From contig NZ_CP019562.1 in assembly GCF_001983955.1 (NCBI RefSeq), positions 372,001 to 436,000 of the forward strand: 64,000 nt of DNA, given 5' to 3'. The notes under the pieces were generated by a model. That model was not told where the DNA came from, searched no databases, and was given only the letters and a program-made list of their open reading frames with translations. Positions 3,928 to 61,452 of this stretch are shown piece after piece. Numbering within the stretch: position 1 is the stretch's first letter; the number at the start of each line of letters is the position of its first letter. The DNA comes from Streptococcus oralis. GTDB lineage: Bacteria > Bacillota > Bacilli > Lactobacillales > Streptococcaceae. A program made the translations under genes and the position numbers.

Positions 3928-4827
3928 ATGAAAAAGCTCCCCTTAGTATTCTCTGGCTGTTTATTAGGTTTAGCAGGTGCAGGAAATCTGATTGCAGATA
4001 CTTTGCCTGTTCTGTCGCATTTATTGAGTCTGACTGGTCTAGTGTTGTGGATTTTCTTTCTTGTTGTTCATCTTTTTAATTGGGAAGAAACCAAGCAAGA
4101 ATTGACCAGACCCCCTCTTTTATCTGGGATGGCCACCTTTCCCATGGCTGGGATGATTTTATCGACCTATGTCTTTCGCGTATTCCCTGCTCTTCCTATA
4201 GTAGCACAAGGAATCTGGTGGTTTTCCTTTCTCTTGGATTTGGCGTTGATTGCTACTTTCACCATCAAATTTACCTGTCCGGGTCGGAGGGTCAATGCGA
4301 CTCCAAGCTGGACGGTGCTCTATGTGGGGATAGCAGTAGCGGCCTTGACCTATCCTCTGGTAGGCATTATTGAGATTGCCTATGCGACCTTGAGTTTTGG
4401 TTTTGTCTTGACCTTCTATCTCTATCCGCTTATTTATAGCGATTTAAAGAAAGATCCACTCCCAGTGGCCTTGCTTGGACAGGAAGGAATCTACTGTGCT
4501 CCCTTTTCTCTACTCTTGGCTTCTCTAGTTCGAGTTGGAGGAGCAAGCCTACCGACTTGGCTCTTGATTGTCATGATTTTGGCATCTCAATCCTTCTTTT
4601 TCTTTGTTTTAACCCGCCTACCCAATATTTTAAAACAAGGATTTCAACCAGCCTTCTCAGCCCTAACCTTCCCAACCATTATCACAGCTACTTCGCTCAA
4701 GATGGCTCAGGGAATTTTGAAACTTCCATTTCTGGATTATCTGGTCTTGGCTGAAACCGTTATTTGCCTCACTATTTTATTCTTTGTCTTGGGTGCTTAT
4801 CTGATTTGGTTACGAAAAAAGGTCTAG
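3928..4827 (+). CDS. TDT / TehA-SLAC1 family membrane transporter
   Basis: A 299-residue protein with ten hydrophobic helices arranged as in the TDT family (TehA tellurite-resistance proteins, bacterial C4-dicarboxylate/malate exporters, plant SLAC1 anion channels). An ATG at 3928, six bases after a strong GGAGG, is preferred over the upstream in-frame TTG at 3916, because the TTG would lie before its own ribosome site. The positively charged start MKK followed by a hydrophobic helix fits an inserted N-terminus. The gene has its own extended -10 promoter and shares a bidirectional terminator with serS. Substrate is unknown; anion or weak-acid efflux is the family's usual role. Confidence 0.72.
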   Translation: MKKLPLVFSGCLLGLAGAGNLIADTLPVLSHLLSLTGLVLWIFFLVVHLFNWEETKQELTRPPLLSGMATFPMAGMILSTYVFRVFPALPIVAQGIWWFSFLLDLALIATFTIKFTCPGRRVNATPSWTVLYVGIAVAALTYPLVGIIEIAYATLSFGFVLTFYLYPLIYSDLKKDPLPVALLGQEGIYCAPFSLLLASLVRVGGASLPTWLLIVMILASQSFFFFVLTRLPNILKQGFQPAFSALTFPTIITATSLKMAQGILKLPFLDYLVLAETVICLTILFFVLGAYLIWLRKKV

Positions 4828-56131: not shown

Positions 56132-57405
56132 TGAAGATAAGTTGGAATGGATTTTCTAAAAAAACATACCATGAGCGCCTGGAGTTGCTGAAAGCTCAGG
56201 CACTCCTTAGTCCTGAAAAGCAAACGAGTCTCGAGCAGGATGAACAAGTCAGCTTGGCAGTTGCAGATCAGCTGAGTGAAAACGTGGTAGGAACTTTTTC
56301 TCTGCCTTATTCGCTGGTTCCAGAGGTTCTTGTCAATGGTCAGGAATACACAGTTCCCTATGTGACAGAAGAACCCTCAGTGGTTGCTGCGGCCAGCTAT
56401 GCCAGTAAAATCATCAAGCGAGCAGGCGGCTTTACTGCTCAAGTGCATGAGCGTCAGATGATTGGACAGGTAGCCCTTTATCAAGTTGCTAATCCTGAAC
56501 AAGCGAAAGAGAAGATTGCAAACAAAAAGACTGAACTCTTGGAACTTGCCAATCAAGCCTATCCTTCTATCGTTAAACGTGGAGGTGGGGCGCGTGATTT
56601 GCATGTAGATCAGATCAAAGGTGAAACAGACTTTCTCGTTGTTTATCTCCATGTCGATACCCAAGAAGCTATGGGTGCTAATATGCTCAACACCATGCTA
56701 GAAGCTTTGAAACCAGTCTTGGAAGAACTTAGTCAGGGACAAAGTCTCATGGGAATCCTGTCTAACTACGCGACCGATTCTCTGGTGACTGCAAGCTGTC
56801 GCATTGCCTTTCGTTACTTGAACCGTCAAAAGGAGCAAGGACGAGAAATTGCAGAGAAAATCGCTTTGGCTAGTCAGTTTGCACAAGCTGATCCTTACCG
56901 AGCTGCTACTCATAATAAAGGGATTTTTAATGGTATAGATGCCATTTTAATTGCCACTGGTAATGACTGGCGTGCTATTGAGGCAGGGGCGCATGCCTTT
57001 GCTAGTCGAGATGGACACTATCAAGGTCTTAGTCGATGGACGCTGGACCTTGAAAGGGAAGAATTGGTTGGTGAGATGACCCTGCCCATGCCTGTGGCGA
57101 CCAAGGGTGGCTCTATCGGCCTCAACCCTCGTGTAGCCCTTAGTCATGAACTACTGGGAAATCCTTCTGCCAAAGAATTAGCCCAGATTATCGTGTCTAT
57201 CGGGCTTGCCCAAAACTTTGCGGCCCTCAAAGCATTGGTCAGCACAGGCATTCAGCAAGGCCACATGAAATTGCAGGCTAAATCCTTAGCTCTTCTAGCA
57301 GGTGCTAGTGAATCCGAGGTAGCTCCACTAGTTGAGCGCCTCATCGCAGATAAAACCTTTAACCTAGAGACAGCCCAGCGCTATCTCGAAAACTTAAGAT
57401 CATAA
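56131..57405 (+). CDS. mvaA: Hydroxymethylglutaryl-CoA reductase (class II)
   Basis: 424 residues. Reduces HMG-CoA to mevalonate. Class II bacterial type: ENVVGTFSLP near residue 50, ATHNKGIFNGIDA near residue 260 (lysine of the active site), ATGNDWRAIEAGAHA near residue 275 and TKGGSIG near residue 330. Translationally coupled to mvaS. No terminator is visible in the 30 bases after it. Confidence 0.96.
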   Translation: MKISWNGFSKKTYHERLELLKAQALLSPEKQTSLEQDEQVSLAVADQLSENVVGTFSLPYSLVPEVLVNGQEYTVPYVTEEPSVVAAASYASKIIKRAGGFTAQVHERQMIGQVALYQVANPEQAKEKIANKKTELLELANQAYPSIVKRGGGARDLHVDQIKGETDFLVVYLHVDTQEAMGANMLNTMLEALKPVLEELSQGQSLMGILSNYATDSLVTASCRIAFRYLNRQKEQGREIAEKIALASQFAQADPYRAATHNKGIFNGIDAILIATGNDWRAIEAGAHAFASRDGHYQGLSRWTLDLEREELVGEMTLPMPVATKGGSIGLNPRVALSHELLGNPSAKELAQIIVSIGLAQNFAALKALVSTGIQQGHMKLQAKSLALLAGASESEVAPLVERLIADKTFNLETAQRYLENLRS

Positions 57406-57755
57406 AAAACTCAGACGATCTATTTTTAGAGTGATGGGGAATTTAAACAAACTATATAGATATCAATCTCAAAAATTAGAAAGAATAGAAATGTAGACAA
57501 ATATCATTTAGTGTTTGTCTATTTTATTTGAAAAAACATAGAATTGTATAGAAAATTCTAATGAGCTATGTTCCTTTATACAAGATTTGCTTGAGTGTTA
57601 TAAAATTGATATAATTATATATAGGAATTTCTAGAATGTGAGAATTTAGTATTATTCTAATTAGATATAGGATTGTGTAATAACTCAATTTCTTTTGTTA
57701 TGTTTACAAAAAATATTATATTTTGTAATTTTAGTTTTTTTAAAAGGAGATAATA
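57406..57755. other. AT-rich spacer at the left edge of the defence module
   Basis: 350 bases of strongly AT-rich sequence with no open frame of note. It holds one convincing promoter (57587-57615). The composition changes at about 57415, a few bases after the mvaA stop codon, which marks the left edge of the inserted segment. No direct repeat or integrase remnant is recognised. Confidence 0.6.
57587..57615 (+). promoter_or_regulatory. Promoter of the Septu-like module
   Basis: TTGCTT (57587-57592), 17-base spacer, TATAAT (57610-57615). The leader to the first start codon is then about 135 bases long. Confidence 0.7.
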
Positions 57756-59357
57756 ATGTATTTTTTCTTTTATGCATATGATGCGCCCAATAATCCTACT
57801 CTACCTAATCCGATTGAGTTAGAAGAAAAGCCAGAAGAGTACTTTCGATTTGAAAGAATTAGTTGGAATGATAAATTTAGATATAAAACATTATATAATG
57901 TAAATTTTTGTAAAGGAAAAGAAGTTACATATCTAGGGCAAGTAAAATTTGGATATTCTGGGATTGGTTCTGTAGATGAAGGTGATTTTAGAACGATTGT
58001 TAATAATGGATAGTATCGGGAACTAGGACAAAAAATTTTTTCTCTGGGACAATCGCCGGAATACTACCAAAATATATTTTCCTTAGGTGAAACAATAGCA
58101 AATGAATATTTTTCAAAAGTTAGAGATATAGCTTTTGATTTAGATCTTCTTAGCGAACATCGAAATGAAAACATTATGATTCATTCTTTGCTGAGAGAAG
58201 TATCTGCTTCTACTGTTAAAAATCAGTTTAATCGAATTTCTCGTGGAGGAGTTGAAATAACTCCATATAATTTCTATTTTACGTATAAAAAGTCAAAGCA
58301 GGAAGGACTGGATGAAATTGGTAAAATAGCTTTTGAAGTAAAACCATATGAGAAACCACAAACAAATTCACATGTTTTGATTGGACGTAATGGGGTTGGA
58401 AAAAGTTATATTTTAGATAGAATGATAAGAAGCGTTATTTTAGATGATGATAAAGAAGATTATAAATTTTACCAATTTCAAAATGAATCGGGCGAAAATA
58501 ATATTCCTTTTTCAGGAGTTACATTAGTATCTTTTAGTGTTTTTGATGATTTTATTAATTACAAGCAGTTAAATAAAAATGATGATATTTTATTTAATTA
58601 TGTTGGAGTGAAATCCTATGATGAAGAAGCTGGGATTATTACAAAAACTTTGGACGATTTGTCAAGTGATTTTTATGTTAGTTTGTGCACTATAAAGGCT
58701 AAGAATATTATAGAGAGGTGGGAAAAAGTTATTTCTTATCTTGATTCTGATCCTATTTTTAAAAAAGAAGTAAGAATAGTTTCCAGAATGCAAGAAAATT
58801 GGAAACGCATTGATGGAGGAAATAATCCGGAAGCAAAAGAAATCATTGAAAAATTTTATAAACAAGGACTTAGCTCGGGAAATAAAATTGTTTTACTAAC
58901 ATTGACAAAACTGGTTGAAGTTGTAGAAGAAAAGACTTTGGTTATCCTTGATGAACCAGAATTACATTTACATCCACCCTTGATGGCTGCTTTTAATAAA
59001 GCGTTAGGATATTTAATGCAAAATAGAAATGGAGTTTCAATTATCTCGACTCATTCACCAGTATTTGTTCAGGAATCTCCAAAATCAGCGGTTCATCTGA
59101 TGTTTAGAGCAGGAAAATCGATTAAGATAGAGAATCCGATTATAGAGACTTATGGAGAAAACATAGGAAAGTTGACACATGAAATATTTAGACTAGAATA
59201 TGAAAAATCAAGTTTTGTACATGATATCGAAGAGCAAGTGCAAGCTAATGAAAATATAGCAGATGTATTTAGTTATTTTCGCGGTCAACTTGGATATGAA
59301 GCTAGGGCTTTAGCTAGACAGATGATGTATGATAAGCAAAGGAATAATGATGAATAA
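57756..59357 (+). pseudogene. PtuA-like AAA ATPase of a Septu-type defence module, interrupted by an in-frame TAG
   Basis: An ATG at 57756 after AAAAGGAGAT opens a frame that meets TAG at 58011-58013 (codon 86) and then stays open, in the same frame, to TAA at 59355-59357. Reading through gives about 533 residues, a normal PtuA size. The ABC-type ATPase parts lie beyond the stop: Walker A LIGRNGVGKS (about residue 208), signature LSSGNK (about 370), Walker B LVILDEPELHLHP (about 392) and ISTHSP (about 425). The codons after the TAG (YRELGQKIFSLGQ) continue smoothly, and no in-frame ATG occurs until 58176, which lacks a ribosome site. Change of TGG or CAG to TAG would explain it. The module is probably inactive in this strain, unless amber is suppressed. 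Confidence 0.8.
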
Positions 59358-60237
59358 GAGATTAGAAAGAAAAGACTTTGATTATTCTCAGGTTTTTGAT
59401 GTGGCTATAGAAAGTTACCAGGAAGATACTGCAAAATATTTAAGGCAAAAAAAAGAATACTGTCTGTTACAAAATAATGAATTTATTTCCTGTGCTAGCG
59501 ATCAAAAATATAATTTATTCCAAGAATCCATAAAAGAAAAGGATGAATTTGAAATATTTAAACAAAAAATGGTTAAATTATACAACGATAAATTTAGTAA
59601 TAAGAAATATAAAGTTCGAGAATACTATGATGAAATTAAGTTAATTTCTCCTAACAATATTTGTCCATATTGTTTAAAGCGTGAGGTAAGAAATTTAGAC
59701 CATTTTTTACCTAAAACGAAATATCCATCTCTTTCTATATCAGATGCAAATTTAATACCATCCTGTAGTGATTGTAATCATGATAAATTAAATTCAACTA
59801 AACTTTATATTAATTATTATTTTGAAGAAATTGATGATGTCCATTATATGAAGTGCTATGCTGACTTTGATAATGAGGATATTAATTTTCGCTTTGAATT
59901 AGTAAAACCACCTTCTTGGGATGAAGATAAATTTAATAGATTGAAAAATCAATTTAAAGATACAAATCTATTAAAATTTTATGCAGAGCAAGCTAAAATA
60001 GAATTTTCTAGGAAGGAGAGAAGTTTCTGTCGCTGTGTAAAAAACAGTAGCTTATACAACGAAAGGTTAAAGATAGAGTTAGATGATTTAATTCGTGATG
60101 AGGAAGAAGTGCTTGGGATTAATTCTTTAGAGGCTACTTTATGGAGAGGTTTGAACGAAAGTGGTACTGAATTATTTAAGTATATAAGGAATAAACAAAA
60201 ATCAGGTGCTTTTGATGAAAACTGTGAGAGAAAATAA
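59350..60237 (+). CDS. PtuB-like HNH endonuclease of a Septu-type defence module
   Basis: 295 residues. The HNH core is CPYCLKREVRNLDHFLPKTK at about residues 100-120, followed by the second zinc pair CSDCNHDKLNS near 146-156, as in PtuB and in the HNH partner of Ec78-type retrons. In Septu, PtuA complexes load PtuB nuclease, which degrades DNA on phage infection. The ATG at 59350 sits six bases after AAAGGA and overlaps the end of the ATPase gene by eight bases; ATGs at 59347 and 59329 are alternatives. The frame is intact. No reverse transcriptase or retron RNA is nearby, so a stand-alone Septu is the better reading. Confidence 0.8.
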   Translation: MNKRLERKDFDYSQVFDVAIESYQEDTAKYLRQKKEYCLLQNNEFISCASDQKYNLFQESIKEKDEFEIFKQKMVKLYNDKFSNKKYKVREYYDEIKLISPNNICPYCLKREVRNLDHFLPKTKYPSLSISDANLIPSCSDCNHDKLNSTKLYINYYFEEIDDVHYMKCYADFDNEDINFRFELVKPPSWDEDKFNRLKNQFKDTNLLKFYAEQAKIEFSRKERSFCRCVKNSSLYNERLKIELDDLIRDEEEVLGINSLEATLWRGLNESGTELFKYIRNKQKSGAFDENCERK

Positions 60238-60323
60238 TTCAGTGAAGATTTTAGGGTAAAACTCCTCATCTGTGAACTGTATCATACGGAACGAGATGTA
60301 ATATCATTCACATTGACTATAAA

Positions 60324-60480
60324 GAGATTGGGATAAAAAGATTTAGATTTTAGAAATTCTTTATTCTAAATTTTTAAAATCGATAGATTAGAAAAAAGCG
60401 AACAAAACAGAATTCTGAGTGTCAGATAGCTCGTTTTGTTCGCTTTTTATATTCAAGGTTAGACTTTTGTCCCAGATTCT
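60324..60480. repeat. Imperfect inverted repeat bracketing the terminator at 60.4 kb
   Basis: GAGATTGGGATAAAAAG (60324-60340) is partly complementary to AGACTTTTGTCCCAGATTCT (60461-60480). Between them lies the strong terminator hairpin. The arrangement resembles short intergenic repeat elements of streptococci, but I cannot assign it to RUP, BOX or SPRITE. Confidence 0.4.
60393..60448. terminator. Bidirectional terminator between PtuB and scrR
   Basis: A perfect 16-pair stem AAAAAGCGAACAAAAC / GTTTTGTTCGCTTTTT (60393-60408, 60433-60448) with a 24-base loop that can form CTGA/TCAG. A-rich on the left and T-rich on the right, it suits converging transcripts. Confidence 0.9.
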
Positions 60481-60486
60481 TAGTAC

Positions 60487-61452
60487 TTAGATACTTTTTC
60501 CTGGTAATAGGGTGACTGGTAAGAAGTAACCAGTTGTCGCGACTTCCTTGCCTTCAATCTTCTGCAAGAGAAGATCGACAGTGAGGTGGGCAATCTCTTT
60601 CATAGGTTGCTTAATCGTTGTCAAATGAGGATAGTAGTTCTCGATAAAGTAAGTCCCATCATAGCCGATGACCTTGAGCTCTTCAGGAACAGAAATTCCC
60701 AGCTCTTGAGCGATTTTGATCACCAGGATAGCTGTCAAATCATCCGAAGCAAAAATCGCATCTGGTTTCTGATGGGTCAAGATATTCTTGATTTCCATTT
60801 CTTTTCTGACGGGAGAAAAGTCACTCGAAACATTGATAATAGGCGCTTTTGGGAGAACAGAGGCAAATCCAGCATGGCGCAGTCCAGTCGGTGAATTCGA
60901 GTTATCATTTCCTGTAATCATGATGATAGACTGGGCGCCAGTCTTGACCAAAGTTTGAGCGGCGAGGACTCCGCCACCGTAGTTATCAGAGGAGACGACA
61001 GGGATGTCAGGTGATAGATTTCGGTCAAAGGAAATGATCGGTGCCGTCACACGATTGTAGTCTTCGATTCCCAAGTTGTGACTTCCAGAAATGATACCAT
61101 CGACCTGGTTGGCCTCCAGCATTTCAATGTACTCCCGTTCTTTTTCAGAGTCATGTTCGCTGTTACAGATGATGGTCTTGTAGCCATTCTTGAAGAGTTG
61201 GTGTTCCAACTTGTCAATCAACTCCGCATAAAAGACATGACTGATGTTTGGAAAAATAAGTCCAATCAACTTGGCAGATTTTCCTTGGAGACTTCGAGCC
61301 AGATTATTGGGTTTATAGCCCAATTCTCGCATGGCTTCATTAACCTTTTGAATGGTTTTCTCAGATAGATAACCCTTTTTATTGATGACCCTTGAGACGG
61401 TAGTAGGGCTGACGCCTGCAAGTTTTGCGACATCAGTTAGTTTTGCGACCAT
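60487..61452 (-). CDS. scrR: Sucrose operon repressor (LacI family)
   Basis: 321 residues: helix-turn-helix KLTDVAKLAGVSPTTVSRVI (residues 4-23), hinge NNLARSLQGKSAKLIGL, and a periplasmic-binding-protein-like sugar domain. Regulates scrA and scrB. The start lies 20 bases inside the scrB 3' end, so the two genes are co-transcribed and ScrR level rises with its targets. Confidence 0.93.
   Translation of the reverse strand: MVAKLTDVAKLAGVSPTTVSRVINKKGYLSEKTIQKVNEAMRELGYKPNNLARSLQGKSAKLIGLIFPNISHVFYAELIDKLEHQLFKNGYKTIICNSEHDSEKEREYIEMLEANQVDGIISGSHNLGIEDYNRVTAPIISFDRNLSPDIPVVSSDNYGGGVLAAQTLVKTGAQSIIMITGNDNSNSPTGLRHAGFASVLPKAPIINVSSDFSPVRKEMEIKNILTHQKPDAIFASDDLTAILVIKIAQELGISVPEELKVIGYDGTYFIENYYPHLTTIKQPMKEIAHLTVDLLLQKIEGKEVATTGYFLPVTLLPGKSI

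Follow-up and report, generated by a model that had tools for sequence, protein, structure and literature searches.

A PtuA-like ATPase gene in a horizontally acquired gene pair of Streptococcus oralis is interrupted by a single amber codon

Introduction

Does a gene pair of the anti-phage type still function when its ATPase gene carries a stop codon early in the reading frame? The question is raised by a locus in a 64,000-nucleotide stretch of the Streptococcus oralis chromosome (contig NZ_CP019562.1, positions 372,001 to 436,000; the window), in which a gene for a PtuA-like ATPase is followed by a gene for an HNH protein. A preliminary description, made from the sequence alone, had proposed that a recent point mutation switched the pair off, perhaps because of the cost of autoimmunity, or that suppression or read-through of the stop yields a little full-length protein. 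We conclude, with a probability of roughly 0.8, that this is a horizontally acquired PtuAB-like pair in which one nonsense substitution cut the ATPase gene, and that the pair is most likely inactive. A defense gene broken by a stop is an ordinary broken gene, here in an interesting setting. If defense systems carry a cost or soon become obsolete, broken copies are to be expected; this locus is a clean example, with a single lesion apparent.

Results

A single amber codon interrupts one gene

We found that the TAG at 58011-58013 is in the same frame as the ATG at 57756, and that the frame continues unshifted to the TAA at 59355-59357 (Table 1), as the preliminary description had it. The TAG is followed by 447 open codons. 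In 300 dinucleotide-shuffled versions of 57756-60237, open runs reached 132 codons at most. By itself, a same-frame continuation after a stop proves little: 2 of 52 long open reading frames (ORFs) in the window are likewise trailed by more than 200 open codons in the same frame; in those two, the next listed ORF begins at most 16 bases away.

The N-terminal piece (85 amino acids) and the C-terminal piece (447 amino acids) are parts of one gene, because both match the same profiles consecutively and homologues run through the stop. The two pieces align with positions 24-61 and 75-520 of PADLOC PDLC00282, and with positions 13-60 and 74-508 of PDLC04235. An N-terminal domain profile derived from 98 homologues, with the window sequence excluded, separately matched residues 1-85 (2.5e-8, profile positions 21-71) and residues 87-165 (8.8e-26, profile positions 85-162).

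We read 99 homologue loci (80 genomic loci and 19 of 44 loci on viral contigs). Six were excluded (one truncated at a contig end, one lacking an N-terminal match, three spread over two frames, and a short viral locus), ten homologues were added, and four identical rows were dropped. This gave 99 distinct homologues, one of which (L133) is cut off at its far end by the edge of its contig. All 99 show a sense codon where the stop lies, partly by construction since whole frames had been selected. Homologues that naturally end at codon 86 had been named as a sign against the lesion; in the 99 loci read, we saw none that ends or is split there. In the three two-frame loci the breaks are elsewhere, at profile positions 138, 216-229, and 236-237. 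Conserved motifs lie close on each side of the stop column (LGxVKIG before, FFSLGQ..YY after). The column itself is variable: it holds 16 residue types, with Gln in 11 of 99 and Trp in none, and so does not bear out the expectation of Trp or Gln there.

Two other observations were made on these loci. Further broken or two-frame ATPase copies (L117, L129, L148, and L149) were present among the 79 genome loci that are not cut at the start; we saw none of them broken where the S. oralis gene is. In addition, a Shewanella assembly (L130) and a contig of a Holosporaceae metagenome-assembled genome (L132) encode an ATPase identical to Ea59 of phage lambda, probably from contamination with lambda DNA.

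The age of the stop is another matter. The nearest relatives of the ATPase that we found are 45-46% identical, over only part of the protein, too distant to date the stop. Neither the description of the lesion as recent nor the cost of autoimmunity as its cause was borne out. Of 64 conserved columns, the ATPase differs from the consensus in 7, mostly by conservative changes (the mean of the others is 3.1, and 13 of 99 differ in 7 or more), which neither shows nor excludes wider decay of the gene.

The predicted products of the interrupted gene

The motifs that we take to be Walker A, the ABC-type signature, and Walker B all lie 3' of the TAG, in agreement with the preliminary description. A model of the read-through protein, built on 36 alignment rows (mean predicted local distance difference test score 85.5; predicted template modeling score 0.83), has the strands of an N-terminal beta-domain up to residue 98, helices at 101-162, and the ATPase from residue 171. 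Residue 86 is in a short strand (85-87). Because the stop falls in this strand, the 85-residue product is predicted to lack the end of the beta-domain and the whole ATPase.

The earliest ATG, GTG, or TTG in frame past the TAG is at 58176 (residue 141). The pairing energy with the anti-Shine-Dalgarno (anti-SD) sequence upstream of 58176 is -3.2 kcal/mol, which is equalled or beaten at 57% of the 1181 plus-strand ATGs in the window. At the ATG at 57756 the energy is -9.3 kcal/mol, reached by 6% of these ATGs. That is, 58176 has no ribosome site, as had been stated. Met at residue 141 is not unusual, since 21 of 99 homologues have it. Since homologues run unbroken across the stop and 58176 lacks a restart signal, the gene looks like a pseudogene made by a nonsense mutation.

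The partner gene is intact, as originally described. Its frame is open from the ATG at 59347 or 59350 to 60237, and the anti-SD energy at its start is -6.5 kcal/mol. Its product scores 21.2 bits against the Pfam HNH family, just under the cutoff of 21.4. The HNH protein can probably still be translated from its own ribosome site.

Table 1. Features of the ATPase/HNH locus (positions in the window)
Feature	Position	Strand	Basis or remark
Insertion between mvaA and scrR	57419..60486		gap of 34-236 bp in relatives; low GC
Shine-Dalgarno-like AAGGAG ahead of ATG 57756	57744..57749	+	sequence; anti-SD duplex -9.3 kcal/mol
N-terminal piece, PtuA/Ea59-like ATPase gene	57756..58013	+	85 codons plus stop; PDLC00282 24-61; N-domain profile 2.5e-8; homologues unbroken here
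In-frame TAG, residue 86 of the frame	58011..58013	+	model: short strand 85-87, N-terminal beta-domain
Remaining ATPase frame, 447 codons plus TAA	58014..59357	+	sequence, PADLOC, homologue alignment
Next in-frame ORF after the TAG that has a common start codon, 393 amino acids, no ribosome site	58176..59357	+	ORF list; anti-SD energy
Presumed Walker A, GRNGVGKS	58383..58406	+	invariant alignment columns
Presumed ABC-type signature region, LSSGNK	58869..58886	+	SSG invariant in alignment
Presumed Walker B, LVILDE	58938..58955	+	DE invariant in alignment
HNH partner gene, PtuB/Ea31-like, open frame	59350..60237	+	ATG 59347 or 59350, overlaps end of ATPase gene; PDC-M01B 6.4e-60

The pair is inserted between mvaA and scrR

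The gene order around the locus is mvaS-mvaA ... scrR-scrB, which would itself suggest a Streptococcus; NCBIfam named HMG-CoA synthase, HMG-CoA reductase, and sucrose-6-phosphate hydrolase, and the minus-strand gene at 60487-61452 is presumably scrR. Only two long genes lie in the 3081 bp between the end of mvaA (57405) and scrR. Their composition is foreign, with a GC content of 30% (ATPase gene) and 27% (HNH gene) compared to 42% for the window. The mvaA stretch is matched in 255 of 279 genomes of the genus (this one included), and we read the loci of the 29 best relatives, a sample that favors genomes with an undisturbed mvaA end. In 27 of the 29, just 34-236 bp separate mvaA from scrR; the other two loci are cut by contig ends. 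Homologues of the ATPase were found in 3 of 283 other genomes of the genus (E 1e-30), with 29-45% identity over the matched part.

Likeness to the relatives stops midway in what we read as the mvaA terminator hairpin. Only the left arm of this apparent hairpin remains (57406-57418), broken by the insertion, and mvaA transcripts may therefore run on into the ATPase/HNH pair.

We also looked at genomes chosen because their mvaA match ended early (five of six such rows were examined). In all five (L227-L231), type I-E cas genes occupy the site between mvaA and scrR, as judged by NCBIfam names for seven proteins in one genome and by ORF size and sequence start in the other four. One has no cas1/cas2-sized ORF (110 codons or more), and CRISPR repeats were read in two. 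On the far side, all five carry part of the mvaA 3' end a second time (129-228 bp). Based on the few homologues in the genus, the near-empty site in relatives, and the cas genes at the same place, the PtuAB-like pair is a rare arrival by horizontal transfer at a site that other defense systems occupy as well. Different defense systems sit there in related species, which marks mvaA-scrR as a defense hotspot.

Discussion

How the pair would have been inactivated

The most likely reading is that a PtuAB-like anti-phage module of two genes, belonging to the Ea59/Ea31 branch and with nucleic acid as its presumed target, was gained between mvaA and scrR, and that a single nonsense substitution, presumably after arrival, cut the ATPase gene at codon 86. 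Ribosomes would then yield an 85-residue fragment missing the last part of the N-terminal domain as well as the entire ATPase. Little or no ATPase core would be made, because there is no start signal downstream of the stop. By analogy with Septu and retron PtuAB, the HNH partner would be idle without PtuA. Substitutions in Walker A or B of PtuA or in the HNH motif of PtuB abolish immunity by Septu EcB88, which cleaves tRNA-Tyr (PMC13096335), and neither PtuA nor PtuB of retron-Eco7 alone arrests growth (PMC11555353).

Alternative explanations

It is unlikely that the TAG is a sequencing or assembly error in an intact gene. An error would fit the open, well-conserved frames of the partner and of the remainder of the gene, and also the ordinary, variable position of the stop. 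However, the genome is a single contig of 1.97 Mb (100% complete, 0.05% contamination), and the stop is of the substitution type rather than a homopolymer shift.

We give still less credence to the idea that the mutant is uncoupled rather than null. The N-terminal domain (~165 residues) is found in lambda Ea59 and in about 100 homologues from bacteria and phages, and in the model it is confidently folded, with no clear match for residues 1-165 among solved or viral predicted structures. If it were the trigger sensor of a separate Ea59/Ea31 branch of PtuAB, the amber codon together with rare restarts at 58176 would release a sensor-less, Septu-like core.

Suppression or natural read-through, keeping a potentially harmful system at a low dose, is very improbable and gained no positive support. 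A residue inserted at the stop would probably be accepted, given the 16 types tolerated there. In contrast, of the 52 long ORFs of the window 15 end in TAG, and all 47 tRNA genes found by Rfam and typed by ARAGORN have ordinary anticodons, none of them CTA, in a list that itself lacks tRNA-Trp and tRNA-His. Thus, the proposed search for a suppressor tRNA came out negative for the typed genes and is incomplete as a survey. A tight amber-anticodon pattern gave 14 hits, of which only the one at 4334 is in a listed tRNA gene (Arg-TCT), and a looser tRNA run added only two sub-threshold hits. The family search found neither tRNA-Trp nor tRNA-His in this genome and a Trp control pattern recognized none, probably because the search or the genome record has a gap.

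Equally improbable is a gene working as two pieces, since a core restarted at 58176 (residues 141-533), although it would cover the whole part that aligns with Escherichia coli Septu PtuA, would have no ribosome site, and the break is inside the beta-domain rather than at its edge, at a position where no homologue read is split.

Comparison with known systems

We compared the pair, which we favor as inactivated by the nonsense substitution, to related systems. As in Septu, an ATPase gene precedes an HNH nuclease gene and the ATPase has a PtuA-fold core with Walker A, Walker B, and signature motifs. These features, together with the PADLOC matches, agree with the original description of a PtuA-like ATPase with an HNH partner; a role in defense is presumed. 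In contrast to Septu PtuA, the frame is broken by the TAG, and there is an extra N-terminal domain of ~165 residues. E. coli PtuA (PDB 8eea, 8ee4, 8sux; 14-15% sequence identity) starts at the core, with residue 1 of 8eea_C and 8ee4_D aligning with model residue 170. For this reason we file the protein as PtuA-like and not as canonical Septu. PtuAB of E. coli ATCC25922 is reported to act on nicked DNA (PMC11555353).

PtuA and PtuB of type I-A retrons (Eco7/Ec78, Ec83) sit beside a reverse transcriptase and an msr-msd RNA. This pair has neither: the 3 kb insertion contains no reverse transcriptase ORF, only the two long genes, and there is no Rfam match in 57300-60600. The best profile matches of both genes are PADLOC PDC-M01A (5e-141) and PDC-M01B (6.4e-60). 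These are bioinformatic candidate labels, treated in one paper as unpublished candidates overlapping Septu (PMC11811056).

A close parallel in organization is ea59-ea31 of phage lambda (NC_001416), in which an ATPase gene is likewise followed by an overlapping HNH gene. Ea59 is 34% identical to the S. oralis ATPase over query residues 1-441, and several bacterial homologues are nearer (37-41%). A profile made without the lambda and window sequences matches the first 165 residues of Ea59 (3e-53). The S. oralis pair has the W-(D/N)-D and SLG/YY motifs in the N-terminal domain, the PtuA-like core, and the overlapping downstream HNH gene of this branch. No paper among the literature matches listed names Ea59 or Ea31 together with PtuA, PtuB, or Septu; this locus ties a bacterial defense-type pair to lambda ea59-ea31. 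The lambda pair is carried by a phage and its ATPase frame is whole, whereas the S. oralis pair is on a bacterial chromosome and its ATPase frame is broken.
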